Origin: a virus
IMG/VR virus record: IMGVR_UViG_3300028283_000002
Span: 62,001-126,000 of that record
Reading direction: 5' to 3' (one strand)
Length of the DNA: 64,000 bases
Shown here piece by piece: positions 3,564 through 64,000 of this stretch. Made by a program: the position numbers and the translations under genes. The notes beneath the pieces were generated by a model. The model made no database searches. It had not been told where the DNA came from and saw only the letters and a program-made list of their open reading frames with translations. Within the stretch, counting starts at the first letter, position 1, and each line of letters begins with the position of its first letter.

Positions 3564-4286
3564 TTAATTTTCCCAATTCTCTTCACCGTAAGGGTCTAGG
3601 GTCTTTAATCTCATATCCATTATTTTAATTGGTTGTGTATGAATTAATAATTGTGAAGTTTTATCGTCACATTCAACTATGATAAAATCTTGTGTTGTAC
3701 CATTATGTACACCAATTCTAATAACATGTTTAGTGTATTTTATTTGATCTCCGCCTTTTATCGGTTTACCCTGATAGGTTAAGAGTTGATCAAGAAAATG
3801 TTCTTCAAAGAAATCTAAAAATTTACCAACATCAAATAACTTCGATTTTCCTTCGTCTTGCCAATTATATCTTACCTTTCTTTCCTTATCTTCAAATATA
3901 ACAGGGTAATAATCACCCTTATTGTTACCAAGTATTACGTCATTTACTTCTAAAATCTTTTGTCTTCCATTTTCATCCACCACACCAATTATCTTACCAT
4001 TTATGGATTTTTTCAATTCTTCTATCATTAACTCAGCAGATTCTTTCTTTGCGCTCTCAACTGCGACCTTTTTTTCTTTTTCTAGGTCACTCATTTTTTT
4101 CTTAAGTTCAGCCAGAGCCTTCTCTATATCTCTAGTGTTCTTATTAGTGGTATTGGTCAAAATATTTTGAAAATCATTATAAAATGACTTAGTATCGTAT
4201 ATTTTCTTAGCTCCTGGTGGATCTGGTTTTATCATATCTTCATTTAAGACTTCAAGATTTAAATAAGAATTATATTTCTTTAACAT
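3564..4286 (-). CDS. Candidate packaged protein: capsid-targeting N-terminus, coiled coil and C-terminal DPYGEENW tag
   Basis: A 240-residue protein beginning MLKKYNSYLNLEVLNED, which matches the capsid-targeting pattern and offers L-x-E cut sites. Residues about 55-95 form a charged coiled coil (ALAELKKKMSDLEKEKK). The middle has beta-rich sequence and HVIRIGVHNGTTQDFIIVE. It ends LDPYGEENWEN, the tag shared by 17 proteins here. A TTATATATAG element sits four bases before the ATG (4291-4300), so the message is probably leaderless. It ends 17 bases before the ATG of the next gene downstream (2419-3546), with which it may form an operon. The molecular function is unknown. Confidence 0.78.
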   Translation of the reverse strand: MLKKYNSYLNLEVLNEDMIKPDPPGAKKIYDTKSFYNDFQNILTNTTNKNTRDIEKALAELKKKMSDLEKEKKVAVESAKKESAELMIEELKKSINGKIIGVVDENGRQKILEVNDVILGNNKGDYYPVIFEDKERKVRYNWQDEGKSKLFDVGKFLDFFEEHFLDQLLTYQGKPIKGGDQIKYTKHVIRIGVHNGTTQDFIIVECDDKTSQLLIHTQPIKIMDMRLKTLDPYGEENWEN

Positions 4287-7270: not shown

Positions 7271-7837
7271 ATGAAACTAGAAGATAAAATTAAAGAATTA
7301 GAAGATAAGAAAAAGTCTATAATGACTTCTATTATGGATGAAAAAGTCGAAAAAGAAGTAGTTGGCGATCTTCTCGATGAAATCATTAATATAAAATACG
7401 CTATATCACAATTGAAAGAAGTTGATAATATTGAGGAAGAAGAAGACGATTATCATCTTAACGTGGACGCTTATATCGAAAAGATTAAAACAGAAAGTGC
7501 TCATCATACTATGGGATCAACCACTTATGATATTCAAAGAAAATTGGTCACTAAAATAGAAGTTCTTAAAAATAAAACTTTAGCTACAAAATTAATTACA
7601 AATGGTAATATGGCTGCTGTTTTAGGAGACGTCGCTGGTTATACTCTAACCCCAATAAACGCTGGTAGATTAAATCAAGTTGATCCAAGAATACCATACC
7701 CTATGGGGCAAATAGGTAATTTACAGATATTTGTAGACGCTTTTCAGAGATGGGATGATAATAGAATTGTATTATACGCGAATGAAAACGAGGTAGCCAC
7801 TTTAATAGTAAAGGACACACAAGGTGTACTTATATAA
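7271..7837 (+). CDS. Hypothetical, possible virion structural protein
   Basis: A 188-residue protein with an N-terminal coiled coil (MKLEDKIKELEDKKKSIM) and a C-terminal beta-rich part containing AAVLGDVAGYTLTPINAGR, YPMGQIGNLQIFVDAF and RIVLYANENE. The order 'G-x-I-G-x-x-x-I-[FY]-V-D... V-L-Y-x-x-x-x-E' resembles the C-terminal strands of HK97-fold capsid proteins such as gp23, so a minor capsid-like piece is possible (inference only). It sits between the frameshifted gene and bS21 in a plus-strand series. Confidence 0.6.
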   Translation: MKLEDKIKELEDKKKSIMTSIMDEKVEKEVVGDLLDEIINIKYAISQLKEVDNIEEEEDDYHLNVDAYIEKIKTESAHHTMGSTTYDIQRKLVTKIEVLKNKTLATKLITNGNMAAVLGDVAGYTLTPINAGRLNQVDPRIPYPMGQIGNLQIFVDAFQRWDDNRIVLYANENEVATLIVKDTQGVLI

Positions 7838-8072: not shown

Positions 8073-8268
8073 ATTAAAGTATAAAATCACTTATAGATGT
8101 CCTACTCCTCACACACCTGAGGCTGATAGTGAAGAGATTTTTATCGATGCTTATAACGATAAAAGAGCAGTAGATAAATTTTATTCTATGTTCAAAAGTA
8201 GAACATTTGTATTTGAAAAGGTGGAAGAAGTAATAGTAGAAAAAACACATAAAGTAGATGCCAAATAA
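8062..8268 (+). CDS. Small hypothetical protein between bS21 and thymidylate synthase
   Basis: A 68-residue protein (MINKLKYKITYRCPTPHTPE...) whose start overlaps the bS21 stop by 11 bases and whose end overlaps the thymidylate synthase start by 11 bases, so all three are likely co-translated. It looks like a single alpha/beta domain with DAYNDKRAVDKFYSMFKSR. No family is recognised. Confidence 0.65.
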   Translation: MINKLKYKITYRCPTPHTPEADSEEIFIDAYNDKRAVDKFYSMFKSRTFVFEKVEEVIVEKTHKVDAK

Positions 8269-12176: not shown

Positions 12177-13241
12177 ATGATAAAAAAATATAACACATAT
12201 ATAAACGAAGGAGTTAAGGATAAACCTAAATTCTTTAATATCAAGGACGTTTTTGATAAATTTCCAGGTAGTATTTCGATTGCTGAGAAGGAACTTCAAA
12301 ATCTTGTAATCGGGGAATTATGTGTTTGGTATGTAGTTGGTTCCAGTTCGTTGAAAAAACAAGTGGTAAGTGAAGTAGAAATTAGAAAGTTTCATCAAGT
12401 ATATTTTAACGGTTTTCACGTCAACGCTGATTATAGTATAGAAATAGAACAAAAAAGCAAAGAAGACAATTCTTTGAGAACTACAATAGATGATGAAATA
12501 CAATCATATATAGATAAACTTAAAAATGGTCGACCAAAGAAACATGAGATAGTTGGTTTTCCAACTGGTGAGGTATTGTATGTTACAAGAGACGAGATGC
12601 AAAAATTATTAGATAATGGGCTTGTGAGATATGAGAAGTGGATGAAATGGAGAGATACAGATTATAAAGACATATATTTTTTTAGAGATCAAGTCTATCA
12701 TCAAATTAGAAAAGTTTTAGACGATACATATAAAAAACCAATAAAATCTAATGTTGAAGAGAAAGACGAATACGATATTGGTGACGTTGTTGTTTGTACT
12801 GGTTCTTCTGGTAGATTAGTACTTGAAGATAGAATAGGTAAAATTGTTGATAAAGTCAAAAAACCAAAAGAACAAGATTATTCTTATCTGGTATCATTTT
12901 TAATGAAATTTAGTTTCTATCTTTTAGATGGAAATAAATGGTGGATGAAAGAAAATAATATAAAAGGATTATATACTGGTGATATTCAAACTCAAATACA
13001 ACTAGCCAAACTACAAGATAAAAGACAACCACCACCCGAAGTTGAAAAATTTATGAGCGATTTTCTAGAAGAACACGAAATAGATGACGATTATCATTTA
13101 AAACAACTATTTAAATCTGGCGCAAATAAAGTAGTTATAGATCAAGGGAATGATAATATAAAAACAATAGAACCAAAACCTATGTCTATACAATCAGATG
13201 ATTACGAAGATGAAGAAGAAATGGATCAACAAAATGATTAA
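12177..13241 (+). CDS. Candidate packaged protein
   Basis: A 354-residue protein starting MIKKYNTYINEGVKDK with a clear I-N-E site. It has a region of mixed alpha/beta, then YDIGDVVVCTGSSGRLVLED, another G-D-x-V SH3/KOW-like barrel (about 195-240), and an acidic tail (SDDYEDEEEMDQQND). The TAA overlaps the next ATG in ATGATTAA. No enzyme motif is seen. Confidence 0.7.
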   Translation: MIKKYNTYINEGVKDKPKFFNIKDVFDKFPGSISIAEKELQNLVIGELCVWYVVGSSSLKKQVVSEVEIRKFHQVYFNGFHVNADYSIEIEQKSKEDNSLRTTIDDEIQSYIDKLKNGRPKKHEIVGFPTGEVLYVTRDEMQKLLDNGLVRYEKWMKWRDTDYKDIYFFRDQVYHQIRKVLDDTYKKPIKSNVEEKDEYDIGDVVVCTGSSGRLVLEDRIGKIVDKVKKPKEQDYSYLVSFLMKFSFYLLDGNKWWMKENNIKGLYTGDIQTQIQLAKLQDKRQPPPEVEKFMSDFLEEHEIDDDYHLKQLFKSGANKVVIDQGNDNIKTIEPKPMSIQSDDYEDEEEMDQQND

Positions 13242-15009
13242 GAAATTTAAAACATATAACGAAGAGTTTTCTTTCGATAAAATCGAGAGCGAGGAGATTG
13301 TTATTGATATTAATGACTATGCCGAAGAATACGATAATATCTTTAAAGATAAATTCAGATGCGTTAAAGCTGTTGGACCTATTCATCAAGAAGGTGAAAT
13401 CTTTAATGTGAAAGATTTGTTTAAAGGTACATTTGGAATGTGGATAACAAGTAAATCAAGATACGATGTGACTGAAAAATTTAAAATTATAAAAGGTTTC
13501 GATTGTGATATAGAATTCCTACAATTGAAAAAAGGTAATTATATTATGATTTGGCCGGGTAAACAACAAAGAATAAATGACGCTGATCCAAATTACGAAC
13601 CTTATCCAGGAGCACCAAAGAGAAAAGCGAGAATGAAAGGATCAAAAGAAAATTCTTTAAAAAGATTATCTAGAATATTTAGTGAACATAATAAAATTTT
13701 TATTCCAGCCAATAGAGTTGTAATGTACAATTTAGTGGAATATTTAAGAGACGCCCAAGAGAAACTTATAGGCGGTTATTTTTGGGAAACATCATCAGGC
13801 ACTGTTGTAAGAGGAACTACCGATAAAAGATATACAGGTAAACAAGAAGAAATAGTTATCACAAGACCTAGATACATATACACAAACGGTGATCATTTAA
13901 TATTAAAAAGCCAAAAAGTAGGAGGAACAGTTTGGGACAGAGAAAAAGAAACTTATTTAGATATAAATAAACCCATCTACGGTAAAATGGTACATTGGAT
14001 TGATCCAGAACTAGATCCATACGGTGAGGAGGAATGGGACGATGAAGTTAGAGAAATCACTGAAATCCGAAGTTTTGATAAATTTATACCAACAGGTAAA
14101 TCTATTTCCAGTAATGAGATAGAAGATATGATAGAAAAAAGAGACGTAAGAGTTCTTAATGAAGATTATATAGGACGGGTAATGGTTTCAGATTTACCAA
14201 ATTATTACATACATATAACTAATTGGATAATTAATAATGATGGAAGACAGCGGTATAAAGGATTAAGATTTTATTACGATAATTACTACGATCCAAATGG
14301 AAAACATTATCAATTTACAACTGAAAGGGTTTACTATTTCAAATCTAACATTACAATTACCACTTATAAAGAAATTGATCCTATGATAATTATAGATGAA
14401 AGAGATCCATATGGAGAAGAAGATTGGCGTGAATACGTGATAAGTGAACAATTTAATGAAGAATACACTCCTCCTAAACCAAAACTTGTTTTAGATAGAA
14501 CACTTAATTTTAGTGATTTTCTTAGATTTGATCTTCTCGGACTTAAAAAGTTAAATCTTGTTAGAGATTTTATGTTAGAACAAATTGTTATTATTAAACA
14601 GGGGCATAATAACGCTAGAACAAAAGGTAGGGTATATCACATTAAACCAATTAAAATAGATGGCGATCAATATTACGAGATTAAAATGACTACAAAACAA
14701 GGGGATAAATCAATTATTATTGGTGACGCTGATAAATTTAAAGTTAAACCTCCTAAACAAATTAAATATAAAATAGATCCATGCGGTGAAGAAGATTGGG
14801 AATTATTGGGGGATGACGTTCCGGATGTTAAATCAAAAGTCATTAAGGGTAAAGGAAAAATCAAGAATAATGGGTATTTCAGCCACACCTTTCCGGTCAA
14901 AAAAGATTTTTATAAAATTTTAAAAGATATTCGACATCAAGCGATTCAAAAAGAAGATTTTGAAAAGTTTTTAAAAGAAAAACGAAAAAAGGAAAACGAA
15001 GAAGATTAG
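13234..15009 (+). CDS. Candidate packaged protein with three internal DP(Y/C)GEE(D/E)W motifs
   Basis: The start at 13234 is preferred over 13198 because it gives MIKKFKTYNEEFSFD and the compact ATGATTAA overlap seen elsewhere in the window. The 591-residue protein has three similar modules, each ending in a tag copy: LDPYGEEEWDDEV, RDPYGEEDWREYV and IDPCGEEDWELL. The middle copies show that the tag is not restricted to C-termini. The modules carry beta-rich sequence such as KGNYIMIWPGKQQ. The third copy has Cys in place of Tyr. It reads as a tandem array of one domain plus tag. Confidence 0.75.
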   Translation: MIKKFKTYNEEFSFDKIESEEIVIDINDYAEEYDNIFKDKFRCVKAVGPIHQEGEIFNVKDLFKGTFGMWITSKSRYDVTEKFKIIKGFDCDIEFLQLKKGNYIMIWPGKQQRINDADPNYEPYPGAPKRKARMKGSKENSLKRLSRIFSEHNKIFIPANRVVMYNLVEYLRDAQEKLIGGYFWETSSGTVVRGTTDKRYTGKQEEIVITRPRYIYTNGDHLILKSQKVGGTVWDREKETYLDINKPIYGKMVHWIDPELDPYGEEEWDDEVREITEIRSFDKFIPTGKSISSNEIEDMIEKRDVRVLNEDYIGRVMVSDLPNYYIHITNWIINNDGRQRYKGLRFYYDNYYDPNGKHYQFTTERVYYFKSNITITTYKEIDPMIIIDERDPYGEEDWREYVISEQFNEEYTPPKPKLVLDRTLNFSDFLRFDLLGLKKLNLVRDFMLEQIVIIKQGHNNARTKGRVYHIKPIKIDGDQYYEIKMTTKQGDKSIIIGDADKFKVKPPKQIKYKIDPCGEEDWELLGDDVPDVKSKVIKGKGKIKNNGYFSHTFPVKKDFYKILKDIRHQAIQKEDFEKFLKEKRKKENEED

Positions 15010-19200: not shown

Positions 19201-19509
19201 TTAAACCCATGAATTTCTATCAGTCCAACGATTTTTATATGGGTCTGATTTAGTTTCATATTTTTTACTTGGTAAATCATCGTCCCAATTTTCTTCACCG
19301 TAAGGATCAAGCTCTTTCATTCTGTCCTTTTTAATGTTCATTTTCTTGAGTTCTTTTCTAGCTCTATATGTAACAGAGTAGTCTGATAATTCTCTTAATT
19401 TTTCAAGTATATAAACTCTATCTTTATCTGGAAGATTATGCCAATCATCTTTGGATAATCTCATGGATTTAATTTTCCTTAATTCGTATAAATATTCTCG
19501 GTCGGTCAT
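19201..19509 (-). CDS. DPYGEENW-tagged small protein
   Basis: The start at 19509 overlaps the preceding stop in ATGA and has GGAGG ten bases upstream, which favours it over 19524. The 102-residue protein is helical and basic (DREYLYELRKIKSMRLS), then has KELDPYGEENWDDDL, followed by a degenerate second copy (KSDPYKNRWTD). It is the last gene of the minus-strand tagged block. Function unknown. Confidence 0.65.
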   Translation of the reverse strand: MTDREYLYELRKIKSMRLSKDDWHNLPDKDRVYILEKLRELSDYSVTYRARKELKKMNIKKDRMKELDPYGEENWDDDLPSKKYETKSDPYKNRWTDRNSWV

Positions 19510-20021
19510 ACGTTGTCCTCCCATAATTCTTCCCCGTAAGGGTCTGCTTCACTAAAAATTTGTTTACCTTTATTAATGGGTTGTATTGATTCATTGAATG
19601 CTCCCCACTGTGGAAAATGATCATCCAACAGAGATACTCTTAATAATTCCATATTATCATCTAAATGATGATAAACATTATTTTCACTCGTTAGAATTGA
19701 TAGACCATCGTTTCTCATTATATCTATCAGTGGTCTATTATCGTGTAATAAACACGTATCATCAAAATGAAAAAATGGATCACCGTCTATTCTTGAAAAT
19801 CCTAAAAATTTTATCCAATTTTTTAAATTATCATCTGGGAAATCGTGTTTATTAATTATTGCGCCAGCATCAGTTTCTTTACCTATATAAATCCAACAAG
19901 GACCAGATACACCGCCTACTTTTTCACGTATTCCAAAATATCTCATTTGTTCTCTTAAACACGCGTTTAAAGCAGCTTCTAATTGAACAGATCTTGTTCT
20001 TATCTTAAATACTAATGGCAT
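19506..20021 (-). CDS. DPYGEELW-tagged protein
   Basis: A 171-residue protein ending KQIFSEADPYGEELWEDNV. The body starts VFKIRTRSVQLEAALNACLR, contains GPCWIYIGKETD, and has a stretch of acidic alpha/beta sequence. The residues before the tag (P-x-x-x-G-x-x-x-F-S-E) match those in its upstream neighbours, so the shared unit is longer than eight residues. No known fold recognised. Confidence 0.68.
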   Translation of the reverse strand: MPLVFKIRTRSVQLEAALNACLREQMRYFGIREKVGGVSGPCWIYIGKETDAGAIINKHDFPDDNLKNWIKFLGFSRIDGDPFFHFDDTCLLHDNRPLIDIMRNDGLSILTSENNVYHHLDDNMELLRVSLLDDHFPQWGAFNESIQPINKGKQIFSEADPYGEELWEDNV

Positions 20022-20024: not shown

Positions 20025-20594
20025 TTATTCCTCCCAATTTTCTTCACCGTAAGGATCAACAGCACAAAACTTTTGTCCCTTTGGTTCTTTTTTTCTTGAT
20101 ATTTCTTTTTCTAAAAATATTAAATCTTCATTAACTCTATTTCTCAAACCAATTAAAGCCACTCTATAATCCCTATGCGTCTTGTATCTACCTTTAGTGA
20201 TGAAAAAATAAGAATTTAATTCTCCTCTTGATTTATCCACATCCGCTTCTAATGTCCATATTCTTGTCCTACAATCTGTGAATCTATTAGCTGTGTAATT
20301 ATCCATATTTGGTGCCCATTGACCATTATAATGTCTAGCCACATGATCCAATCTATGAACCATAGGAGTGATATTATTATGTATGGTTCTATATGTGGAT
20401 TTAATATCTTCTATTTCAGCCACTATACCAACACCAAGAATCCCTTTTGTGAGATATATAGGGAATACCTTTTCTTTTATTAAATTCCACAATTCAGTGC
20501 ATGTTTTTACAATTATGGCAATAATAACACGCCAACCTTCTAATGTGAATAAAAGTTTGAATATATTACTCAACGTATGGAATACCGCTTTCAT
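20025..20594 (-). CDS. DPYGEENW-tagged protein with membrane anchor
   Basis: A 189-residue protein with a hydrophobic N-terminal segment (GWRVIIAIIVKTCTELW and ILGVGIVAEIE) that likely contacts membrane, a long helical region, and the end PKGQKFCAVDPYGEENWEE. It overlaps the upstream gene by 29 bases. The membrane segment plus cytoplasmic tag suggests tethering something that recognises the tag (inference). Confidence 0.65.
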   Translation of the reverse strand: MKAVFHTLSNIFKLLFTLEGWRVIIAIIVKTCTELWNLIKEKVFPIYLTKGILGVGIVAEIEDIKSTYRTIHNNITPMVHRLDHVARHYNGQWAPNMDNYTANRFTDCRTRIWTLEADVDKSRGELNSYFFITKGRYKTHRDYRVALIGLRNRVNEDLIFLEKEISRKKEPKGQKFCAVDPYGEENWEE

Positions 20595-20895
20595 TTAATG
20601 AATCTAAATAATTGTTATGACCTAATTGAATTTTATCGTAAATTTCGTCTCTGAATTTCACCTTAACTTCCCTATCTGGGTAGTACTCTGCAATTTCTCT
20701 TAATTTTGAACCACTTGGTATAGCTATTAAATCATCATCCATAACGTAAGAACCTTCACCATCAAACCAGGGAAAATCCATAAGTAATTCGTGTTGAGCT
20801 AATAACATTGGATAATATATGTTATTTTCGAACATTCCTGGTCCCTCTAGACAAACCCACCATCTGTTTTGTATTTTGGATATTGTGTATCTCAT
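20566..20895 (-). CDS. Hypothetical protein in tagged block
   Basis: A 109-residue protein (MRYTISKIQNRWWVCLEGPG...). Aromatic-rich N-terminus and no tag of its own; it lies between two tagged genes with an overlap downstream and a three-base gap upstream. No family recognised. Confidence 0.6.
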   Translation of the reverse strand: MRYTISKIQNRWWVCLEGPGMFENNIYYPMLLAQHELLMDFPWFDGEGSYVMDDDLIAIPSGSKLREIAEYYPDREVKVKFRDEIYDKIQLGHNNYLDSLNESGIPYVE

Positions 20896-20898: not shown

Positions 20899-21318
20899 CT
20901 ACTCCTTCCAATTTTCTTCACCGTAAGGATCTAATTCACTAAAAACTTGTCCTTGCGGATCGTTGTTTTCATACCTTATTTGAGCAGCAACCATCTCAAT
21001 TCTTAAAGTGTTTATAACATCTTTATGCCTATCATACATAACATCTATAACAATCCCATGATTATCAATTAGTTCTGGGGGATTATTGGTTGCGTCACAT
21101 ATTATTTTATAGTTATAAAGGAAGTGATTAACTTGTAGTTCTTTAAATATGGGATCTAATCTTGTTATAATTTCAGTGCGTGTGTCTGGCGTATTGAAAC
21201 GCATCCACATGTTTTCTAACGCTTCTTCAATTCTTTTTCTAATTAAGATGAAGGCTCTGCGTACATTTAAATCATCGAGTGTTATCGAATCTTCATTTAT
21301 TATCCAAGGACTATTCAT
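20899..21318 (-). CDS. Stand-alone tail-sheath C-terminal-domain-like protein with DPYGEENW tag
   Basis: A 139-residue protein. Its body follows the phage tail sheath C-terminal domain (gp18/Phage_sheath_1C) closely: LNVRRAFILIRKRIEEALEN, F.....RTEIITRLDPIFKEL, FLYNYKIICDATNNPPELID and VIDVMYD. These correspond to the sheath blocks VRR-x-[FL]-I-x-[IL]-x-K-x-I-x-x-A, [LV]-x-P-[FI], and [YF]-[KV]-[VI]-x-C-D-x-x-N-N-x-x-x-[VIL]-I-D. It lacks the rest of a sheath protein and instead ends QVFSELDPYGEENWKE. A full-size sheath gene starts at 63644. It may bind or cap sheath, or be a recycled domain; no enzymatic role is expected. Confidence 0.68.
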   Translation of the reverse strand: MNSPWIINEDSITLDDLNVRRAFILIRKRIEEALENMWMRFNTPDTRTEIITRLDPIFKELQVNHFLYNYKIICDATNNPPELIDNHGIVIDVMYDRHKDVINTLRIEMVAAQIRYENNDPQGQVFSELDPYGEENWKE

Positions 21319-21706
21319 TGTCCCACCTTTCTTCCCCGTAGGGATCTAATTCACTAAATACCTGTTGATAACTACCTTTAGGATCATGTCCATGTAATCC
21401 TCTAAAATCGCCTTCACAATCAAACCAACCAACATCGGGACGATAACTCCATAATTCACTAGCCATGGATTTTCCTTGTAATTTAGTTTTAACTCCTTTG
21501 TGTTCAATCCACATGGCGTTGCCTTGTGAATCTGACTGTAAAACTTTATGGTTATCTGTTGCATTAATAGTATTACTTAGTTGAAAACTACTTGGATTTG
21601 GTACTCCGTAAAAACTATTAGTCACTATTTTTTTCCATAGTTTATTTGTATTCATTGGTTTTCCTCCTCTCCATTTAGGATTGTTGCTCATAAATCTTCT
21701 AGACAT
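21311..21706 (-). CDS. DPYGEERW-tagged protein with fibre-like segment
   Basis: A 131-residue protein with a basic start (MSRRFMSNNPKWRGGK), then NATDNHKVLQSDSQGNAMW, a segment typical of phage/trimeric fibre repeats of the form [KG]-x-L-x-S-D-x-x-G-N-A-x-W. It ends YQQVFSELDPYGEERWDNE. Start and stop each overlap neighbouring genes by one to eight bases. It may be a piece of a fibre or tail protein fused to the tag. Confidence 0.62.
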   Translation of the reverse strand: MSRRFMSNNPKWRGGKPMNTNKLWKKIVTNSFYGVPNPSSFQLSNTINATDNHKVLQSDSQGNAMWIEHKGVKTKLQGKSMASELWSYRPDVGWFDCEGDFRGLHGHDPKGSYQQVFSELDPYGEERWDNE

Positions 21707-22104
21707 TACCAGTTCTCCTCTCCGTAAGGGTCTAATTCATTAAATCTTTGTTCACCTTTTGGTTGTTGGGTTTGTTCATTTTGTTTCCACAACATTCCTG
21801 TACTACCAAAACCTGTATTATTTTTAAAAAAGTCTGGAAGTTTTTCCATTGCTTCTTTCATATATTTTTGACCTGCTCCTGTAACTCCTCTTGCTTGGTC
21901 GTAATAATTAGTTGACCAATGATCTATTAATCCTAATTTATTCCATTTCTCAACGGCGTCTCTACGTATTTTCCTAAGAGTTTCTTTATCAATAGAATTT
22001 TCATATTCTTTTACAAGTTCTAGTTCTCTTTTAGCAATACTATCAAAGCTCTCCATTTTCATGAGATCTTCGTTTAAACTCCTATATTCTTCTTTAGTCA
22101 TCAT
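21706..22104 (-). CDS. DPYGEENW-tagged helical protein
   Basis: The ATG at 22104 is used; it overlaps the preceding TAA in TAATG. A longer version from a TTG at 22116 is less likely. The 132-residue protein has a charged helical first half (MKMESFDSIAKRELELVKEY), then DHWSTNYYDQARGVTGAGQK, and ends PKGEQRFNELDPYGEENW with Trp as the final residue, the most compact tag in the set. Confidence 0.65.
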   Translation of the reverse strand: MMTKEEYRSLNEDLMKMESFDSIAKRELELVKEYENSIDKETLRKIRRDAVEKWNKLGLIDHWSTNYYDQARGVTGAGQKYMKEAMEKLPDFFKNNTGFGSTGMLWKQNEQTQQPKGEQRFNELDPYGEENW

Positions 22105-22257
22105 TAGTTTCTCCAATCTTCCTCACCGTAAGGATCTAAATCACTAACTACTCTATTAATTTCAGAGTTTCTCATACCTCTTCCTATTGACTGTTTTTCA
22201 TGTAAACTACCGAAGCTTCCTATTTTCCAAATCTTTTATTTTATCTTCTATTTTCAT
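22104..22257 (-). pseudogene. Short DPYGEEDW-tagged gene with a one-base frameshift
   Basis: The ATG at 22257 opens MKIEDKIKDLENRKLR and stops at once. The next frame reads IWKIGSFGSLHEKQS... and ends NRVVSDLDPYGEEDWRN at 22104. Removing one A from the AAAA run near 22240 joins them into a 50-residue protein with the normal tag end. It may be a sequence error or a dead gene. A shorter product from an internal ATG (MRNSEINRVVSDLDPYGEED) is also possible. Confidence 0.5.
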
Positions 22258-22274
22258 AACTTTTATTTTATTTT

Positions 22275-22538
22275 TTATTCATCTGTTAAAGCCGCTTTAA
22301 TGGATTCTGTAACATCAGGTATGACTTGTACTTTCTCAAGTATTTTAACCTCAATATCAATAATTCTATTACCCGGAATATATCTTTTATCGTATCCAAC
22401 ATCTACCAAAAAACCTTGAGTACAAATTCTATAAAGATGTTCTTTAAGAGAACTATCTTCACAATCAATATGAAGATGATGTAATCTTGGTTCTGTGTAT
22501 CTTTGATCTATATGTATTTCTAATTCGTATGTGTTCAT
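22275..22538 (-). CDS. Hypothetical small protein
   Basis: An 87-residue beta-rich protein, MNTYELEIHIDQRYTEPRL, with HHLHIDCEDSS and RIIDIEVKILEKV. It is the first gene after the tagged sub-block and sits five bases from the next gene. No recognised family. Confidence 0.6.
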   Translation of the reverse strand: MNTYELEIHIDQRYTEPRLHHLHIDCEDSSLKEHLYRICTQGFLVDVGYDKRYIPGNRIIDIEVKILEKVQVIPDVTESIKAALTDE

Positions 22539-25307: not shown

Positions 25308-25550
25308 TTATTCGTTCCAATTTTCTTCTCCGTATGGATCTATATCATTAAAAATTCTATTTGTTTTACGTTCTTCCATTATAGGTACATTTTCGTAATA
25401 TTTCGCAAGATGTTGATAATCATACGTGTACCGGTTAAACTTCAATTTCTCTCTTGATATCTCTTCGGCTAAGATAGCTTCTAGTTGTGCAACAACGTCA
25501 AAACCATGATAAGCTTTAAGATCTTCTATATTTTCAGCATTCCATTTCAC
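25308..25550 (-). CDS. Major-capsid-protein-like fragment with DPYGEENW tag
   Basis: An 80-residue protein. NIEDLKAYHGFDVVAQLEAI and ILAEEISREK follow a well-known segment of T4-family gp23 ([ED]-L-[KR]-A-x-H-G-[LF]-D-x-x-x-[EQ]-L-x-x-I-L-x-x-E-I). The match covers about 35 residues. The protein then ends NRIFNDIDPYGEENWNE. It is far too short to be a capsid subunit. With the sheath-like gene at 20899, it suggests that pieces of virion proteins have been fused to the tag. The end overlaps the next gene by four bases. Confidence 0.62.
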   Translation of the reverse strand: MKWNAENIEDLKAYHGFDVVAQLEAILAEEISREKLKFNRYTYDYQHLAKYYENVPIMEERKTNRIFNDIDPYGEENWNE

Positions 25551-25831
25551 GAAGTCCAGTCCTCCTCACCGTAAGGATCATCATATTTATGTTTCTTCAT
25601 GAGAATTTTATTTCTTCTTTTCTTCCATATTTTAACAAAAAATTTCCAAATGCTTTCTAAACCAAATTCCCAAAAAGCTGCGAAAATTAATACTAACGAT
25701 GCTAAAATGTTTAATGGTGTGAAAAATATAGCAAATTCAAATCCCCCTTTATCGCTATCCTCCCACATCGCGAAATAAAAAAATATAAGCAATACAAACC
25801 AAGCGATTAAAAAACCTATAAGCCACCACAT
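25547..25831 (-). CDS. Membrane protein with C-terminal DPYGEEDW tag
   Basis: The ATG at 25831 follows the upstream TAG by two bases. 94 residues: two transmembrane segments (LIGFLIAWFVLLIFFYFAMW and LNILASLVLIFAAFWEFGL), a basic stretch (KKRRNKILMKKHK), then YDDPYGEEDWTS. By the positive-inside rule the tag faces the cytoplasm, so this protein could bring a tag-binding partner to the membrane (inference). Confidence 0.65.
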   Translation of the reverse strand: MWWLIGFLIAWFVLLIFFYFAMWEDSDKGGFEFAIFFTPLNILASLVLIFAAFWEFGLESIWKFFVKIWKKRRNKILMKKHKYDDPYGEEDWTS

Positions 25832-25833
25832 AT

Positions 25834-27285
25834 CTAGTTCTCCCAATTTTCTTCCCCATAAGGATCTAAAGACTTACGCCTGTGATACTCTTCGGGATTA
25901 GTTTCAAGTAATTTTAATTTATCTATCAATATACTATTTTCTTTCATTGCTTTATCTGAAAGTTTCAGATAATGTATAACTTCTTTTTGTACTTCGTTCT
26001 TTTCGTTTATAACTCTTCTTAAAGCTTCTTTAGTCTTCTTTAAATCTTCAACAAGATATTTTTTATTTTCTTCTATTTCTCTGTTTCTTCTATCAAAATA
26101 ATCTTTATGAAAATTTGCTTCTTTTATCCATTCATCAGGCTCACCAGGTAAAGGTGAAGACTCATCTTTCCACCATGTAGTATCTGGAATGTTCCACTTT
26201 TTAGTTTTTTGCGATGATTCTAACTTATCCCTGTAATCAGCGTATTTTTTCTTATTAAGCGTCCACTCTTCTTCTGTTAAAGTTGGTGGGGCGTAAGCAC
26301 GTGCGTTCTCCCAAGACCTTCCTTCTTCGTATAATTTACCACTACCAAACCATCTACCTTCTAACTCACTATCTCTTTGAAAATCTTCGTACCTTTTCTT
26401 TTTTTCTTTCCATTCTTGATCACTCAACACTTTTATTTCACCATCATCACCTTTTTCGATGGGAAGAATAGGGTTAAGTGGAGGATTAAAACCTCTTTTT
26501 TTCATTACTTCGTTCCACTCATCTTCTGTATAGCGTTTATATTTTTCTTCTATTATATTATTATATTTTTCCCTACTGTCACGCAGATGTGGATTTTGAT
26601 CCAACTTCCATAAAGGAATTTCTTGTTGTTCTGTATCTACATTTAATTTAATACCTTTTGGATATTTATGTTGTGATACCTGCCAGGAATAAGGTTTATA
26701 AGGTTCGTCGTAATCCTTAATTTCATTTCTTCTATCTGGATTATTTCTATTATATTCTGTTTGTTTTACAAATTCTTTATATCTCTCCCTATTTTCTGTT
26801 TCAGTTAAACCATGATCAGGTTTATAAATACCACTTCTGAAATCTTCTTTTGGTTTTTGTGTCGCCGTTATGAACGGTCTTCCCTGACTGACTATGTTAT
26901 CAGCCAATTTTCTCACTTCGTCGTGGGTTAATTCTTTACCGTCAACATAATACTTATTATCTTTTCTTGTAACTGCTGGATTTTGTAAAGAAAAATGAGA
27001 TTTACTCGAATATGTTTTCTCACCTTCCGAATTCCACACTTCTGTTATAGGAACAAAAGGTTCTAATCTAGAAACTTCCTTTTCATATTCTTTTGCTACA
27101 TCTTTTATGGACACAAAAGGTTTTTTTTCTTGGTTTTCCTTTTCCTTCAATTCCTCGTAATGGAATACATTATTTCGTGCATCAGGTTCGGAAGAAGAAA
27201 CATCTTTATTTAAATGTAAAGTTTCTTGCCACCATCTTACACCAGACTCATTTGGATCGTATTCACCATCTTTATTTCTTGCCAT
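25834..27285 (-). CDS. Large charged DPYGEENW-tagged protein
   Basis: 483 residues from the ATG at 27285 (a GTG at 27288 precedes it). It is highly charged, Tyr/Trp-rich, with loose repeats around D-E-W-N-E, Q-E-W-K-E-K-K-K-R-Y-E-D-F and E-E-W-T-L-N-K-K-K-Y-A-D-Y. A coiled coil spans about 400-460, and the end is KSLDPYGEENWEN. It looks like an extended scaffold- or linker-type protein. It starts inside the end of the preceding gene (14-base overlap). No known family. Confidence 0.68.
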   Translation of the reverse strand: MARNKDGEYDPNESGVRWWQETLHLNKDVSSSEPDARNNVFHYEELKEKENQEKKPFVSIKDVAKEYEKEVSRLEPFVPITEVWNSEGEKTYSSKSHFSLQNPAVTRKDNKYYVDGKELTHDEVRKLADNIVSQGRPFITATQKPKEDFRSGIYKPDHGLTETENRERYKEFVKQTEYNRNNPDRRNEIKDYDEPYKPYSWQVSQHKYPKGIKLNVDTEQQEIPLWKLDQNPHLRDSREKYNNIIEEKYKRYTEDEWNEVMKKRGFNPPLNPILPIEKGDDGEIKVLSDQEWKEKKKRYEDFQRDSELEGRWFGSGKLYEEGRSWENARAYAPPTLTEEEWTLNKKKYADYRDKLESSQKTKKWNIPDTTWWKDESSPLPGEPDEWIKEANFHKDYFDRRNREIEENKKYLVEDLKKTKEALRRVINEKNEVQKEVIHYLKLSDKAMKENSILIDKLKLLETNPEEYHRRKSLDPYGEENWEN

Positions 27286-27793
27286 CACTCATATCTTTAA
27301 TCTTTTTAACAATCTCTTTTTGTATAGTTTTAGTCAATTCATCTACCATCATCTGCTCAAATTCTTTCATATGCTCTTCATACGTTTTCTTTTTTGTAGA
27401 CTCAGGTGAATCTGGAAAAGTCTTAGGTAATTCTATATCAACGTCGTAATAATCACCTAACATTTTTAATTTATTCCAATCATTTTTGTGAATAGAATTT
27501 CTGTACCATTTAACGTAAAAAACACATAAAGAATTAACAATTAATCCATTCTGTAACAGATAATCGTGACTATCAGAATCTTCCCCACAATCTGTTTCGT
27601 GCCATCCTCGCCACCCGTCATCGTTGAATTTTTCTGGTTTGTCTATATCTGAATAATTTGCTGATCCTCTTTTAGCAAAGCTAAAAGCAGTCTCTATTAG
27701 AAGAGTCAATTCATCGTTGATAGGATCTTTTAACTTTTCTTCTTTCTTAGGTTCCATATATAGAAGAAACCTAGATGTATCATTCCTGTGCAT
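27272..27793 (-). CDS. Hypothetical protein
   Basis: 173 residues from 27793; an ATG at 27757 (MEPKKEEKLKDPINDELTLL) is an alternative. It has DGWRGWHETDCGEDSDSHDY and LLQNGLIVNSLCVFYVKWYR, then a charged C-terminal helix. The Leu-Leu-x-x-G-L-x-x-N-S-L-x-x-x-x-x-x-W-Y pattern occurs in several phage proteins of unknown role. Confidence 0.6.
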   Translation of the reverse strand: MHRNDTSRFLLYMEPKKEEKLKDPINDELTLLIETAFSFAKRGSANYSDIDKPEKFNDDGWRGWHETDCGEDSDSHDYLLQNGLIVNSLCVFYVKWYRNSIHKNDWNKLKMLGDYYDVDIELPKTFPDSPESTKKKTYEEHMKEFEQMMVDELTKTIQKEIVKKIKDMSDGKK

Positions 27794-36362: not shown

Positions 36363-37600
36363 ATGAATAACGTAATAACAACATATGACGACTTCTTAAA
36401 TGAAGGATTGTTAGATGATACTAAAGCTAAGATTTTGAAATGGTGGAACAACTTTCAGAATAGAGATAATGTAATAAGAAAGATTCATATGTATCTTAAC
36501 GCTGGTTCGTGGGGAGTCTTTTCATTTTCATAGCCACTCTTATAGCAATGTGGACACCTACTGATATTGGTAGAACTATACAGTCTTTAATTACAAATAA
36601 CAAGTTAATGTATTGGGCTATTTTTGTCATGTTGAGTAATGTAAATACTGGCGATAAACAATTAATGAAAAAAAGAAAAGAATTAGTAGAAAAGAAAATG
36701 AAAGAACTCAGAGATATGTTCGCTGAGAAAAATTATACTAGTCATTATTACGTTGTTTTGGGTGATAAAAAAGATATTAAATCAGTACTGGATAAACTTA
36801 AAGCAGATGATCTTATTACTGATGCAAATATTATTGACGTTGCTGATGTAACATTGGTTGATTTTTCAAAAACTTATAACATTAAAGATCCAGATAAATC
36901 TGTAGATCCTTATGGCGAAGAAGATTGGGCTGATAAAGATGTTGATGAGAGAGAGGCTTTACAAATATCAAACGCTGCAAAGAATTTAGAAGATAAATAT
37001 AAAGTCAATTTCAGAAAAGTAGAAGACGTGGTAGATTATATGGATAATAAATGGGAAGATTTTTCTGTAGCCAAGAAATTAACAAAATTTGGTAAAACTA
37101 CATCTAAAATGTGGGACAGAGAATATCAAAGAGGTATAGATAGAGTAAAACAAAGAAGAGAAGAAAGAAATAGACCACCAGAACCAGTCTTCTTCGATGA
37201 TGAAGATGATATTCCAGATGATCCTATGGGTGATTATTATTTTAATGAAATGCCAAACGATTTAGAATATAATAAAGTGCCTTTGACTGACGCCGAAGCA
37301 AAAAATTATAATGTCGGTGACGTAATACCAATTGGAGGTGAAGACTATACTATAACTAGAATAGATCCAGAAGAAGATGAAGCCTTCGCATATCCAAACA
37401 GATTATTACCAAATAATTGGTTAGAAGAAGAAAGAGCTAAAGGCAACGTAAAAGATTTACCAGATGGTAATCGTGACGGTCATAATTATCCAAGAGTAGC
37501 TGTTAAAATTGAACCACCAAAGAAAAGATTTATGGATAGATTCAAGGACTTTGTAGTTCCTGGATTCGATGTAAAACCACCAGAAGTAATGGAAAGATAA
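36363..37600 (+). pseudogene. Candidate packaged membrane protein with DPYGEEDW tag; one-base frameshift
   Basis: The ATG at 36363 gives MNNVITTYDDFLNEGLLDD, a clear targeting start with L-N-E, and runs 55 codons to a TAG. The rest continues in another frame from a weak GTG at 36509: SLFIFIATLIAMWTPTDIGR, then KKRKELVEKKMKELRDMFAE. Adding one G to the GGGG run at 36511-36514 joins NAGSWG to SLFIF and gives about 412 residues. These hold a transmembrane segment, SVDPYGEEDWADK in mid-protein, and a G-D-V-I-P-I-G-G-E-D turn near the end. The targeting start argues that the upstream part belongs. It may be a sequence error or a split gene. Confidence 0.7.
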
Positions 37601-37970: not shown

Positions 37971-38631
37971 AATATCAATTAGAGACATAGAAGCAGCCAT
38001 CAAAGAATCAATGAAAGGCAGTGAAATACAATTTTCAGATTCAGTCTACGAAGAAAAATCTGGCAAACTTCGCCTCATAATCTTCTTCAATAAACTTTTT
38101 ACTAGCACCAACGTGGTCCTCTATACTAAACTTCTTTTCGAAGTTGATAAAAATAAAGAATATCTTGTAGAAAATAGCAGTGGGCAAAATTTCTTTAAAT
38201 ATTTATATGATATTAATTGCCAATATAATATGAAAATTATTGATGATATAAATGATTTTAAGACACAATGGAAGAAGATTATAGATAGTAATGAATTTGG
38301 TCCAAATTTAAAAGTGTTATCTGAGTTTATAAAGCAACCTTCATTCATCGTTAATGAGTGGTTTAATAAGAATGATGTGAAGGATATATCTATGACTGGG
38401 TTTAAATATGAACCTAAGATGAAGATAATGCCTTGTAAGATATTATCGTTTCATTTTGTAATGAATGTGAATAATTCGGAAGAAGTGGAATTATTTATAA
38501 AGAAAGAGGGTAAGAATGATTTTATGTTAACTTTTACTATTAATGGTAAGAAAGTAGATGTAGAGAAACCAGATTTAAGTGCTTTGGTGCAAACTATTGG
38601 AGAAACTCTAAAAGATAATATGGGACAATGA
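37960..38631 (+). CDS. Hypothetical protein
   Basis: 223 residues, MANKISIRDIEAAIKESMKG. Alpha/beta sequence, no targeting start and no tag. The end (EKPDLSALVQTIGETLKDNM) resembles a helical tail and has a faint likeness to the protein at 44398 (also ending in a helix after a beta region). Four-base ATGA overlap with the next gene. Confidence 0.62.
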   Translation: MANKISIRDIEAAIKESMKGSEIQFSDSVYEEKSGKLRLIIFFNKLFTSTNVVLYTKLLFEVDKNKEYLVENSSGQNFFKYLYDINCQYNMKIIDDINDFKTQWKKIIDSNEFGPNLKVLSEFIKQPSFIVNEWFNKNDVKDISMTGFKYEPKMKIMPCKILSFHFVMNVNNSEEVELFIKKEGKNDFMLTFTINGKKVDVEKPDLSALVQTIGETLKDNMGQ

Positions 38632-39044
38632 TTAAGTTATTTGAAGCATATAAAAAGAATTTTTCATTTGGACATGAAATTGAAAATTTCAAAGATTTCT
38701 ACGTTGTTGAAAACGTTGGTAAATTATTTGATATGTGCGATAAGAATGGCAACGAAGTTGTAAGATACATGACTCTTCTATGTGATAGTAATAAAGTGAA
38801 AATAGAAAAGCAAGACGGTAACATTATAAAATTTAGAGGGTACACTTCAACTGATAATATGTCTTCTGCTTTTTTAAAAACCTTCTGGGACGTGAATATT
38901 GAAAAATGGAGATATATAATTTATTTAGTTGATAGTAAAGGTGGGGAATATAGAACATCTGTAAACGATAAAATAACCTTTTATAGATCAAAGGGAATAA
39001 TATCACCTTTAGATCCATATGGAGAGGAGGTTTGGGATGATTAA
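38628..39044 (+). CDS. Candidate packaged protein with C-terminal DPYGEEVW tag
   Basis: 138 residues, MIKLFEAYKKNFSFGHEIEN, a targeting-like start in shorter form (L-F-E-A). A compact beta-rich body (GNIIKFRGYTSTDNMSS, WRYIIYLVDSKGGEYR) precedes SPLDPYGEEVWDD at the end. The codons of the tag (GGAGAGGAGG) provide a Shine-Dalgarno-like run for the next gene, whose ATG overlaps the stop in ATGATTAA. Confidence 0.7.
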   Translation: MIKLFEAYKKNFSFGHEIENFKDFYVVENVGKLFDMCDKNGNEVVRYMTLLCDSNKVKIEKQDGNIIKFRGYTSTDNMSSAFLKTFWDVNIEKWRYIIYLVDSKGGEYRTSVNDKITFYRSKGIISPLDPYGEEVWDD

Positions 39045-39459
39045 AAATTACCTAACATATATAAGAGAAAATGTTGAATTTGATGAACCCCCTATTAATT
39101 TAAAGGATTTCACTCCTAAATACGTTTTTGATTATTATAAAGAAAAATATTGTGAAAAAGATAAGATGTTCAGGTACTGTGAATGGACTAAAATGTATGT
39201 AGATTTCATATTAAAAACATTAGAAATAGATAAATATATTATATTTAATGGTAATTCGCCAGGTGAAAGTAATGAACTACATAGTGGTTATATTAAAAAA
39301 GTTTTACAACCAGATAATCAAAAAGCTATAATTCATATTATTTTAGATGACGGTATTGAGTACGGTATGTACCCAGGTGAAACGGTTAGAATATTTGATA
39401 AAGAACCAGAAAAGATATATAGAGAAGAAGATCCGTACGGTGAAGAAGAATGGTATTAA
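39037..39459 (+). CDS. Candidate packaged protein with C-terminal DPYGEEEW tag
   Basis: The ATG at 39037 is chosen over 39019 because it gives MIKNYLTYIRENVEFDEP, a targeting start with I-R-E, and has GGAGAGGAGG upstream. 140 residues. The body has a helical half, then IIFNGNSPGESNELHSGYIK and a small beta barrel, ending REEDPYGEEEWY. Function unknown. Confidence 0.7.
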   Translation: MIKNYLTYIRENVEFDEPPINLKDFTPKYVFDYYKEKYCEKDKMFRYCEWTKMYVDFILKTLEIDKYIIFNGNSPGESNELHSGYIKKVLQPDNQKAIIHIILDDGIEYGMYPGETVRIFDKEPEKIYREEDPYGEEEWY

Positions 39460-41892: not shown

Positions 41893-42474
41893 ATGGTGAA
41901 GAAATATAAGCAATTTCTGTTTGAATGGGGATACGGAGGTGAAGGTGGTGCAGCTTCTAAAGATCCTATTAAAGTTAGAAGTGCTATGCTTACAGAAATA
42001 GATCCATTAGAAGCCAAAGAAGAAGAAGAAGAGGAAGAAGATAATAGTGATATTCCTATCCTATCAGATACTAACGAATCAGTTGATAATGAAGAATTAG
42101 ATCCTTACGGGGAAGAAGTTTGGGACGGTGATTTACCGAGTTATAGTTATAGAGAATGGAATGACGGTATATATAGTTTCTTAAAACAATTAAAAAATAC
42201 ATTCATAGATGAATGTCTTGCTGGTCTAGAAAGAGTAGAGCAAAAAGACGCGGAAGAATGGTTAGATGATATATTGAATGAAATAGAAGACGGTGATTAC
42301 GATTTTAGTTCAGATGATATTAGAGCCATACGTGACGATATAGACGATTTACTTGAATTATGTGTGGATAATGAAGATGATGATAGAGTCGAAGGTCCTG
42401 ATCCAGATGAGTACTACGATAGAAAACGTGAAGAAGAATACGAAAGATTCGAAAGGGAGTACGAGGATAAATAA
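41893..42474 (+). CDS. Candidate packaged acidic protein with internal DPYGEEVW tag
   Basis: 193 residues, MVKKYKQFLFEWGYGGEGG. Strongly acidic (EEEEEEEDNSD) before EELDPYGEEVWDGDLPSY at about residue 75. The C-terminal half is helical and acidic again (DDIRAIRDDIDDLLELC). The targeting start and the tag are both present. It lies 12 bases after the previous gene, so the two share a transcript. Confidence 0.7.
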   Translation: MVKKYKQFLFEWGYGGEGGAASKDPIKVRSAMLTEIDPLEAKEEEEEEEDNSDIPILSDTNESVDNEELDPYGEEVWDGDLPSYSYREWNDGIYSFLKQLKNTFIDECLAGLERVEQKDAEEWLDDILNEIEDGDYDFSSDDIRAIRDDIDDLLELCVDNEDDDRVEGPDPDEYYDRKREEEYERFEREYEDK

Positions 42475-44397: not shown

Positions 44398-44784
44398 ATG
44401 GTTGAAGAAATAAAAGACGATAATATACATTTTTACGGCAAAGTAGCAAAAATGCCTAAAAATTCTAAAGCTGCCCAATCTTATACCTTCTTGGAGAAAA
44501 TAAAAATATCCAAACAGAAGTTGTGGTATATCTTGATCGAAAAGCAAGATAACGAACTTCAAATGATCAAGTATAATAATAAAAAGGGATTCAATTTGAG
44601 GGCTTTCGTCGATGGTTTAAAAAATTATTACGCTACTAACGAATCTATGAAACAATATATAGATAGATTAGAAATAGATGGAAACGATAAATTCTCTATC
44701 ATAAAGAATATTCCCAACGTTGAAATAGACGGGAAGAAATTGATTTCTATCTTAGCGGAAGACCTTATCAAATTACTTAAATAA
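44398..44784 (+). CDS. Hypothetical protein
   Basis: 128 residues, MVEEIKDDNIHFYGKVAKMP. A short beta region with KLWYILIEKQDNELQMIKYN, then helices, ending LISILAEDLIKLLK. No known family. It ends two bases before the convergent endonuclease gene. Confidence 0.6.
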   Translation: MVEEIKDDNIHFYGKVAKMPKNSKAAQSYTFLEKIKISKQKLWYILIEKQDNELQMIKYNNKKGFNLRAFVDGLKNYYATNESMKQYIDRLEIDGNDKFSIIKNIPNVEIDGKKLISILAEDLIKLLK

Positions 44785-59629: not shown

Positions 59630-59918
59630 TTTTAATTTTTTTAATTATAAAATTTATTAAATCATTTTTATATTCTTTTAATTCTTTCTCCCATATATAT
59701 ATTATTTTATATCCTTTACTTTCAGCTAATAATTTTTTATTTAAATCCTTTTCCCACAATTCTTTAGCTATAGCACTTTTAAACGGGTGTGGTAAAATAT
59801 CAGTTTCTTTATAAATTAAAGGGTTAGCGTGCCAAAAATCTCCATTTATTTCTATTAATAAGTTCGTATTGGTAATTCTAATATCATATGAATTTTTATT
59901 TATCCAATATTGTTTTGA
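59616..59918 (-). pseudogene. Homing endonuclease remnant (C-terminal nuclease part only)
   Basis: An open frame without a start codon, closed on the upstream side by a TAG at 59919. It encodes SYDIRITNTNLLIEINGDFW, HANPLIYKETDILPHPFK, KDLNKKLLAESKGYK and IIYIWEKELKEYKNDLINF. These line up with the end of the 62561 endonuclease (KFFDIKIKNTLIDVNSDLWH, then AESFGYKVFYIWENDIKD). The N-terminal two thirds are missing, and the break falls at the 37-bp inverted repeat. It is a decayed mobile gene. Confidence 0.8.
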
Positions 59919-60258
59919 CTACTTGTAATGATTGTGGGACACAGTATATAAGACATCTACCATCACTTATATACTGTGTCCCACAATCATTACAAGTAGT
60001 CAGAGGTTTCAATGGTGTTGTTTTCTTACCTTTTATAAAATTACTCCACTGTTTATGATATTTCTTTTTATAATGTTCACAATTTCTTTCAGATTGTGAT
60101 AAATAACATTCTGAATCACAAGCCATTCCAGCGTCACTACCAGGATATAAATAATCTAAAAAACAAGAACCTTCTGGGCATTCACAGATTTCCCAATTCT
60201 CTTCACCGTAAGGATCAAGTTCTTTTTTAGAATCAAACATTTTAAATTTTTTTATCAT
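59896..60258 (-). CDS. Candidate packaged Cys-rich protein with DPYGEENW tag right after the targeting start
   Basis: 120 residues, MIKKFKMFDSKKELDPYGEE then NWEICECPEGSCF. Both signals lie within the first 22 residues, so if the leader were cut the tag would become the new N-terminus. The body has about ten Cys (CECPEGSC, ACDSECYL, CEHYKKKY) and then CNDCGTQYISDGRC, a zinc-ribbon-like unit. The last 28 residues are encoded by the inverted repeat and are probably not original. Confidence 0.72.
   Translation of the reverse strand: MIKKFKMFDSKKELDPYGEENWEICECPEGSCFLDYLYPGSDAGMACDSECYLSQSERNCEHYKKKYHKQWSNFIKGKKTTPLKPLTTCNDCGTQYISDGRCLIYCVPQSLQVVKTILDK
59916..60002. repeat. 37-bp perfect inverted repeat with 13-base loop
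   Basis: Left arm 59916-59952 and right arm 59966-60002 are exact reverse complements (for example GACTACTTGTAATGATTGTG against CACAATCATTACAAGTAGTC). The right arm encodes C-N-D-C-G-T-Q-Y-I of the tagged Cys-rich protein. The left arm is an inverted copy that then joins the endonuclease remnant. Confidence 0.95.
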
Positions 60259-63643: not shown

Positions 63644-64000
63644 ATGCCAATAAGTAACAAAGATTTAGGAAAGTACAAACGTCCAGGTATTTTCATCGAA
63701 GAGATAGATCTATCGATGATTGAACGTCCAATTCAGGAAGTACTAATCAACTTAGTGCCTGGCTTCTCTAAGAAGGGTCCTTTCAATAAGCCTGTTAGGG
63801 TTAATAGCCCACAGGAATTTGAGGACATTTTTGGACCAGTGGACAAAAACCTTGAAAACAAAGGTTCATACTTCCACAGATTTGTAGAGGATATGTTGAC
63901 TGTGGGTCCCGTTTGGGCACTCAATTTATTGAAGACTGATCCTACTAGAGATCAATTGGAATGGGAATCTATCTCAGTTTCAGCTCAGTACGATAACGGT
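63644..64000 (+). CDS. Tail sheath protein (gp18-like), N-terminal part
   Basis: 119 residues to the right edge. LGKYKRPGIFIEEIDLSMIE, VLINLVPGFSKKGPFNKPVR, VNSPQEFEDIFGPVDKNLEN, and GSYFHRFVEDMLTVGPVWAL follow the N-terminal arm and first domain of contractile-phage tail sheaths (R-P-G-[VI]-[FY]-x-x-E; G-x-x-x-x-G-P; V-x-S-x-x-[ED]-F-x-x-x-F-G). It establishes myovirus morphology. The C-terminus lies outside the window. Confidence 0.9.
   Translation, partial: MPISNKDLGKYKRPGIFIEEIDLSMIERPIQEVLINLVPGFSKKGPFNKPVRVNSPQEFEDIFGPVDKNLENKGSYFHRFVEDMLTVGPVWALNLLKTDPTRDQLEWESISVSAQYDNG

Follow-up and report, generated by a model that had tools for sequence, protein, structure and literature searches.

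Tagged fragments of virion-assembly proteins, including a free tail-sheath handshake domain, in a giant-phage lineage

Results

Gene content of the locus

The window, which denotes the whole stretch of 64,000 nucleotides analysed here, runs from position 62001 to position 126000 of a viral contig 152,665 bases in length (IMG/VR record IMGVR_UViG_3300028283_000002). The open reading frame at 20899-21318 is a genuine gene of the minus strand encoding 139 aa; the plus strand at this place is riddled with stop codons. Proteins carrying the peptide DPYGEExW are referred to as tagged, and MCP denotes the gp23-type capsid protein. The features of the window are as follows.

3564..4286, minus strand: tagged 240-aa protein
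7271..7837, plus strand: untagged 188-aa MCP fragment, parent residues 388-543 (phmmer, E 6e-26)
13198..15009, plus strand: 603-aa protein with two internal tags
19201..19524, minus strand: 107-aa protein with an internal tag
19506..20021, minus strand: tagged 171-aa MCP fragment covering parent residues 165-244, with a second, weaker match around 305-325 (BLAST/phmmer to the gp23-like MCP of LR756501, E 7e-16 to 5e-17)
20025..20594, minus strand: tagged neighbour, 189 aa; contig L038 encodes a tagged protein similar to it at 8202-8684
20566..20895, minus strand: untagged neighbour, 109 aa
20899..21318, minus strand: tagged free tail-sheath C-terminal (handshake) domain protein, 139 aa (Pfam PF17482, PHROG_23, T4 gp18)
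20908..20931, minus strand: DPYGEENW tag of the free sheath-domain protein
21031..21282, minus strand: sheath-homologous part of the same protein, residues 13-96, matching residues 1174-1271 of the phage's own sheath
21311..21706, minus strand: tagged neighbour, 131 aa, no Pfam/PHROG match
21706..22116, minus strand: tagged neighbour, 136 aa
22104..22175, minus strand: 23-aa tagged remnant of a sheath N-terminal fragment (118 aa in LR756501)
25308..25550, minus strand: tagged 80-aa protein with MCP segment 376-401 (short BLAST match, E 0.003, 46% over 26 aa)
25547..25846, minus strand: tagged 99-aa protein
25834..27288, minus strand: tagged 484-aa protein
36509..37600, plus strand: protein with an internal tag
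38628..39044, plus strand: tagged 138-aa protein
39019..39459, plus strand: tagged 146-aa protein
41893..42474, plus strand: protein with an internal tag
59896..60258, minus strand: 120-aa protein with an N-terminal tag right behind MIKKFKMFDSKKEL, which resembles the T4 capsid-targeting N-terminus
63644..64000, plus strand: start of the intact, untagged sheath gene (1285 aa), which runs past the window to position 129501 of the contig

The Pfam/PHROG search of the other tagged neighbours identified no parent protein. The 171-aa MCP fragment has an orthologue, 50% identical, in the IMG/VR contig 3300027896_000352 (hereafter L033). The tagged sheath N-terminal fragment of LR756501 (554941-555297) matches sheath residues 28-72; at 22104-22538 of the window, most of this gene is gone and an unrelated open reading frame (22275-22538) is found instead. 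Genes resembling LAGLIDADG homing endonucleases by eye lie beside tagged arrays in the window (17475-18416) and in L033 (2489-3301), and such endonucleases may have helped to shuffle the structural-gene pieces.

The free sheath-domain protein

The first-pass annotation had described the 139-aa protein as carrying sheath C-terminal domain blocks with no sheath body. Both points were borne out. Pfam PF17482 (Phage_sheath_1C) matched residues 13-93 with 29.8 bits against the curated cut-off of 26.9 bits (E 6.6e-7), PHROG_23 (tail sheath) matched with an E value of 7e-15, and residues 548-645 of T4 gp18 matched with an E value of 5e-7. The chain opens at the C-terminal domain, so that the sheath body and the N-terminal arm are absent. 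The C-terminal donor arm is absent as well: similarity to the phage's own sheath fades past residue ~1271 of 1285, and the tag follows. The tag was indeed present at the C-terminus, where it had been taken as the very end of the chain; two further residues (KE) follow it, giving the end DPYGEENWKE. Unlike those of some other tagged proteins, the N-terminus (MNSPWIINEDS) has no motif like the capsid-targeting sequence (CTS). An AlphaFold2 model made from five sequences was weak (mean pLDDT 53). When this model was used in the proposed Foldseek comparison, sheaths occupied ranks 1-4 (T4, KP1 gp18-type and then pyocin), with E values of only 0.017-0.19. No match to PF04965 (GPW_gp25) was obtained in the Pfam search of the protein at E 1. 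Judged by its sequence, the free-domain protein belongs to Phage_sheath_1C and is neither a sheath protein nor gp25.

Compared with the copy in LR756501 (90.6% identity), the gene showed a dN of 0.047 and a dS of 0.47. The resulting dN/dS of 0.10 indicates a maintained protein under purifying selection. A third copy, also tagged and 45% identical over residues 4-139, was found in the divergent contig L033, and it scored 40.3 bits against Phage_sheath_1C, above the curated cut-off. Among the 2032 matching phage records (2034 places in total), a second sheath-C place occurred only in LR756501 and its twin LR756503. These findings support the view that the free handshake domain is a separate, tagged and selectively maintained protein.

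Relationship to the intact sheath and to sheath initiators

The intact sheath gene was confirmed to begin at 63644 and to encode 1285 aa. Its C-terminal domain, which lies beyond the window's end in the contig, was 39% identical to the free domain. The first-pass annotation had called the free domain recycled; taken as an origin from this sheath, that was not supported. A small first tree (87/86) paired the two, suggesting a recent copy, and this was overturned after other Mahaphage sheaths had been added, when the three free domains grouped as one clade (100/97). The AU test rejected the free domains as sister to the phage's own sheath (p=0.008) and, more weakly, their placement within the five long sheaths of Mahaphages (p=0.04), and it did not reject a clade made up of the free domains and all six Mahaphage sheaths. 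Furthermore, the canonical NVRR motif is kept in the free domains, whereas the own sheath has HSRE there. Together with the AU rejection, this difference indicates that the split between free domain and own sheath is old. The free domain might descend either from the sheath of a different phage or from a sheath copy that arose early in the Mahaphages; as the branches are long, its exact position in the tree is unsure.

A stand-alone protein of the sheath-C fold (gp25, BW1 or XM1 gp15) starts the sheath in contractile tails (PMC10811340, PMC10457771). Since gp25 is of similar size, has the fold expected of the free domain and accepts the arms of the first ring (PMC10457771), the free domain might be the phage's own initiator, replacing gp25 and nucleating the sheath in the baseplate. 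In line with this, no PF04965 match was found in LR756501 or in the phage's own contig, although a divergent gp25 could escape the Pfam model. On the other hand, no free sheath domain was found in five related genomes of the Mahaphage clade, all of which have intact sheaths, and the gene is clustered with tagged capsid fragments, well away from the sheath and tube genes. Its restriction to a single lineage and its capsid-fragment surroundings make the role of initiator less likely, and we consider it decidedly improbable.

Occurrence of the tag

The window contains 18 exact codings of DPYGEExW, against none in 100 dinucleotide shuffles, and the whole contig contains 36 copies. In LR756501 (735,411 bases), 103-109 copies were counted (109 for the core DPYGEE), lying in ~90 of ~1050 genes; these gene numbers come from a simple longest-ORF call and are approximate. 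The copies in LR756501 comprised 38 C-terminal, 20 N-terminal and 47 internal ones, and a broader regular expression, D[PA][YFWHIL]GE, detected no variants of the core there. The synonymous codons of the tag vary freely, from which it follows that the tag is preserved at the protein level, and a DNA-level repeat was ruled out on the same ground.

Many IMG/VR contigs carry the tag. It was absent from five further genomes of the Mahaphage clade, LR756502, LR745206, LR756504, LR756500 and Lak-B5, against 103 copies in LR756501, with a reversed-pattern control also giving 0, and short tblastn found it nowhere in INPHARED besides LR756501 and LR756503. A host origin was discarded, as the 84,980 species of bacteria and archaea that were scanned yielded just 35 sporadic single matches. 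Solved structures gave just weak, chance-like matches (designed TPRs and others). In the literature search the motif was not reported in any phage, and the sole DPYGEE match was an unrelated yeast peptide paper. A ~3.3-kb contig binned as lake Bacteroidetes (L123) has a tagged gene at 2551-2841, next to one of the ParB/methyltransferase type by resemblance, and may be phage DNA from the tagged lineage; two further ~3.3-kb contigs of lake Bacteroidetes bins (L145 and L150) have a tag match at nearly the same position.

The tagged proteins include enzymes, namely a tRNA nucleotidyltransferase, an acetyltransferase, a deaminase and a methyltransferase, so that the tag is not restricted to assembly mimics. 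In LR756501, some large proteins bear three or four tags (loci L017-L032, e.g. 44452-46983, 154863-158564 and 457823-459457); a multi-tag protein of 1233 aa has a CTS-like start followed by deaminase-like and tRNA nucleotidyltransferase parts plus an HD region.

Fragments of virion proteins in LR756501 and related contigs

The tagged proteins were compared, with the tag masked, with the LR756501 proteome. Several proved to be pieces of virion proteins, and these parents were named by PHROG and PDB as the portal, the head maturation protease (with a coiled-coil scaffold fused to it), the gp23-type MCP and the sheath. When every long protein of LR756501 was ranked by its number of shorter partial matches and repeat/fibre families were set aside, capsid, portal, protease-scaffold and sheath stood out. 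At least 18 fragments were found in this genome (capsid 7, portal 4, protease-scaffold 4, sheath 3).

Several pieces recur. Capsid pieces 104-154, 164-325, 343-412 and 543-592 were found across contigs, and portal residues 60-91 were found fused to 278-312, once together with a permuted third piece. The protease piece 39-157 is present in three phages and tagged every time. The sheath C-terminal domain piece likewise occurs in three phages; the sheath N-terminal piece is present in LR756501 and mostly lost in the window. A chimera in L033 (5581-6036) consists of the protease end and two capsid pieces, with a tag behind each. Some of the capsid pieces, at ~45 aa, lack the length needed to form a folded capsid domain.

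In addition, mini-portals of 330-345 aa (portal ~64-276) with varied N-terminal parts were seen in L036 (2857-3843), L079 (1883-2905), L041 (11485-12522), L033 (36-1019) and LR756501 (142020-143048). Their start looks P-loop-like (GK[ST]) in L036, L079 and L041; Pfam did not confirm this for L036. In L033, a protein resembling M16 metallopeptidases by eye (1016-2152) immediately follows the mini-portal and precedes the tagged array.

In the S77 prohead-protease family, the catalytic triad is H-S-D (PMC5694885). Assigning catalytic residues by motif position and this triad, we found the presumed catalytic His77 (GEFDHP) and the Ser pair 132-133 (VSSRA) in the intact protease. In the tagged fragments, the first Ser of SSR is replaced by Arg in all three and the second by Pro in two of the three, and the presumed His is replaced by Tyr or Phe in two of the three. 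As the presumed catalytic residues are changed while the fold region is kept, these fragments are predicted not to cut.

The fragments retain the most conserved segments of their parents, e.g. MKIAAQTIGLDLVAVKP and ISSTLKRTQIEDIKAATGMD. Many bacterial immune systems recognise structural proteins, the very class of the parents (PMC11364771), and the capsid, portal, protease and sheath fragments might accordingly serve as decoys that occupy host immune receptors for phage structural proteins. Retention of the conserved segments would fit such decoys; binding of such an epitope, however, usually activates the sensor, and the tagged enzymes would be left unexplained. We regard this explanation as improbable.

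The fragments could also be relics, that is, pieces of duplicated structural genes that stay open by chance and whose function is unlinked to the parent. The homing-endonuclease-like genes and the rearranged, permuted pieces suggest frequent recombination, and most of one fragment has been lost from the window. Against this stand the dN/dS of 0.10 of the free sheath-domain gene, the orthologues in a divergent phage, 45-50% identical and with intact tags, and the similar cut boundaries in several phages. Relics are thus disfavoured and appear very improbable.

Association of the tag with virion fragments and capsid-targeting-like starts

Virion fragments were enriched among the tagged genes of LR756501 (8/90 against 10/956, Fisher p=5e-5, with approximate gene calls and non-independent paralogues). 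CTS-like N-termini were enriched as well, being found in 16 of the 90 tagged genes against 26 of 960 (p=6e-8); here, resemblance means a match to a loose regular expression, and clustered related genes are not independent. N-terminal tags often sit directly behind starts of the MIKKFKLFE type. In total, ~42 proteins of LR756501 start like T4 capsid-targeting sequences (MIKKYGQFLNE, MKKYIEFINEE), and these are possibly a large head-loaded set.

Both enrichments and the position of the N-terminal tags would fit a virion-loading adapter, in which tag and virion fragments are addresses and the phage's own particle carries the tagged proteins, either inside it or on its outside. The sheath domain would then anchor the tag and its binder to the tail, as the CTS, capsid and scaffold pieces would for the head. 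The CTS routes proteins into T4 proheads (PMC5694885), and tagged enzymes would suit injected cargo. The looseness of the expression and the clustering of genes weaken this argument, however, and no tag was found in the intact capsid, portal, protease, sheath and tube proteins; moreover, fragments occur without the tag in other Mahaphages, as described below. Since the tagging of enzymes and the CTS-like enrichment favour a link between the tag and the phage's own particle, we rank the adapter close behind interference with virion assembly, though it is in itself rather unlikely.

Untagged fragments in other Mahaphages

The Mahaphage clade is predicted to replicate in Bacteroidetes (PMC7162821). 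Untagged small proteins made up of capsid residues 34-70 and 109-152 were found in LR756502 and LR745206. LR756500 has untagged capsid pieces 365-417 and 483-540 and a portal piece 269-336, and LR756504 has an untagged small protein with capsid residues 109-164. A portal-like protein of LR745206, recognised by eye, shows DYWFP...KFVIP in the same inverted order as in LR756501. Because these untagged fragments are cut at similar boundaries, the fragment proteins would be older than the tag; by sequence, they look like a clade-wide feature to which the tag was added later in one lineage. The keeping of untagged capsid and portal fragments elsewhere further implies that the tag is not needed for their role.

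Untagged mini-capsid and mini-portal genes lie in four other Mahaphages at 7773-9310 of L167, 9407-10131 of L168, 7592-8533 and 15911-16480 of L169, and 8901-9098 of L170, and the order of the mini-capsid and mini-portal genes is common to LR756502 and LR745206. A candidate free sheath domain in LR745206 (E 0.03) fell over the open reading frame of an HD-type enzyme and was dropped. The 636-kb genome LR756504 has two full-length sheath genes, at 165669-169406 and, very divergent, at 366442-370047. Lak phages recode TAG, and the portal gene of Lak-B5 (L166, 410587-412215) has eleven in-frame TAG codons; the lineage of the window was without such recoding in the genes read.

Discussion

The larger finding is a lineage-specific peptide tag that recurs ~100 times in one giant phage, where some of its carriers are fragments that mimic the phage's own proteins of virion assembly. 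That the free sheath domain caps, nucleates or blocks sheaths, be they the phage's own or a rival's, as first proposed, is plausible. Since the tag is present on ~90 genes of LR756501 and at least 18 virion fragments are found there, an explanation must cover the whole set and not the sheath alone.

The sheath C-terminal domain accepts the N- and C-arms of the upper-ring subunits (PMC10811340, PMC10457771). As the acceptor domain is present, the N-arm absent and the C-arm swapped for the tag, the free protein should receive the interlock and not pass it on. We infer arm binding, capping and docking through the tag for this protein. The free handshake domain would bind sheath subunits at the growing end, where it would stop or alter stacking, either as a non-extendable initiator of the gp25 type or as a chain terminator. 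Mimics of the capsid, the portal, the catalytically altered protease, the scaffold and the sheath would likewise be competitive modulators of virion assembly. DPYGEExW would be a docking peptide whose partner brings the bound virion part together with other tagged proteins. An acceptor-only handshake domain within a set of virion-assembly mimics, with the tag as docking peptide, is the reading that we tentatively favour, at a little under an even chance. As its target, the tails of competitors or satellites are possible but doubtful, and the phage's own particles somewhat more doubtful still. Assembly poisoning by a mimic must, in any case, include some way around self-poisoning.

Several known systems resemble parts of this arrangement. 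Like the sheaths of T4 gp18 and of Phage_sheath_1 and Phage_sheath_1C, the free protein has the complete handshake domain with the NVRR and CDATNN..ID motifs. It differs from contractile sheath proteins in that it has neither body nor N-arm, DPYGEENW replaces the C-arm and the gene lies away from the tail cluster. The gp25-type initiators (T4 gp25, XM1 gp15 and Milano BW1; GPW_gp25) appear to be analogous, being small, stand-alone and arm-accepting proteins of the sheath-C fold, whereas the free domain is of the sheath family by sequence, is not conserved in related phages, is tagged and is grouped with capsid fragments.

Giant phages like phiKZ have a truncated, presumably inactive prohead-protease paralogue, gp117 of SPN3US (PMC5694885). 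Like the tagged protease fragments, gp117 is a shortened assembly protein that has lost catalytic position(s) and exists beside a working copy; it differs in being a single, untagged protein without sheath, capsid and portal companions. In Tai tail-assembly interference (PMC11364771) and in satellite capsid interference, small proteins of mobile elements block the virion assembly of another phage. Those proteins are not described in PMC11364771 as virion fragments and have no shared tag; interference by the proteins reported here is putative. The T4 CTS is, like DPYGEExW, a short peptide common to unrelated proteins and linked to the virion, and many tagged proteins have CTS-like starts. However, the CTS is N-terminal and cleaved, whereas DPYGEExW has a fixed core and can be N-terminal, internal or C-terminal.

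To our knowledge, no described phage has the same exact short peptide on ~9% of its genes, and we know of none that keeps rearranged fragments of capsid, portal, protease and sheath as separate selected genes. One giant-phage lineage might, though we hold this to be unlikely on balance, have built a modular protein network on an 8-residue docking peptide and fixed this peptide to miniaturised and catalytically changed pieces of all the major proteins of virion assembly, the resulting mimics (sheath acceptor domain, pseudo-protease, capsid and portal pieces) modulating or sabotaging assembly, notably that of competitors. Should the mimics act on assembly, they would offer inhibitors of capsids and of contractile tails that are ready for use. 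Should the tag serve for docking or loading, it would pinpoint the cargo of the virion, or a network of interactions, in the largest phages known, which have been seen in metagenomes only and whose biology is otherwise closed.
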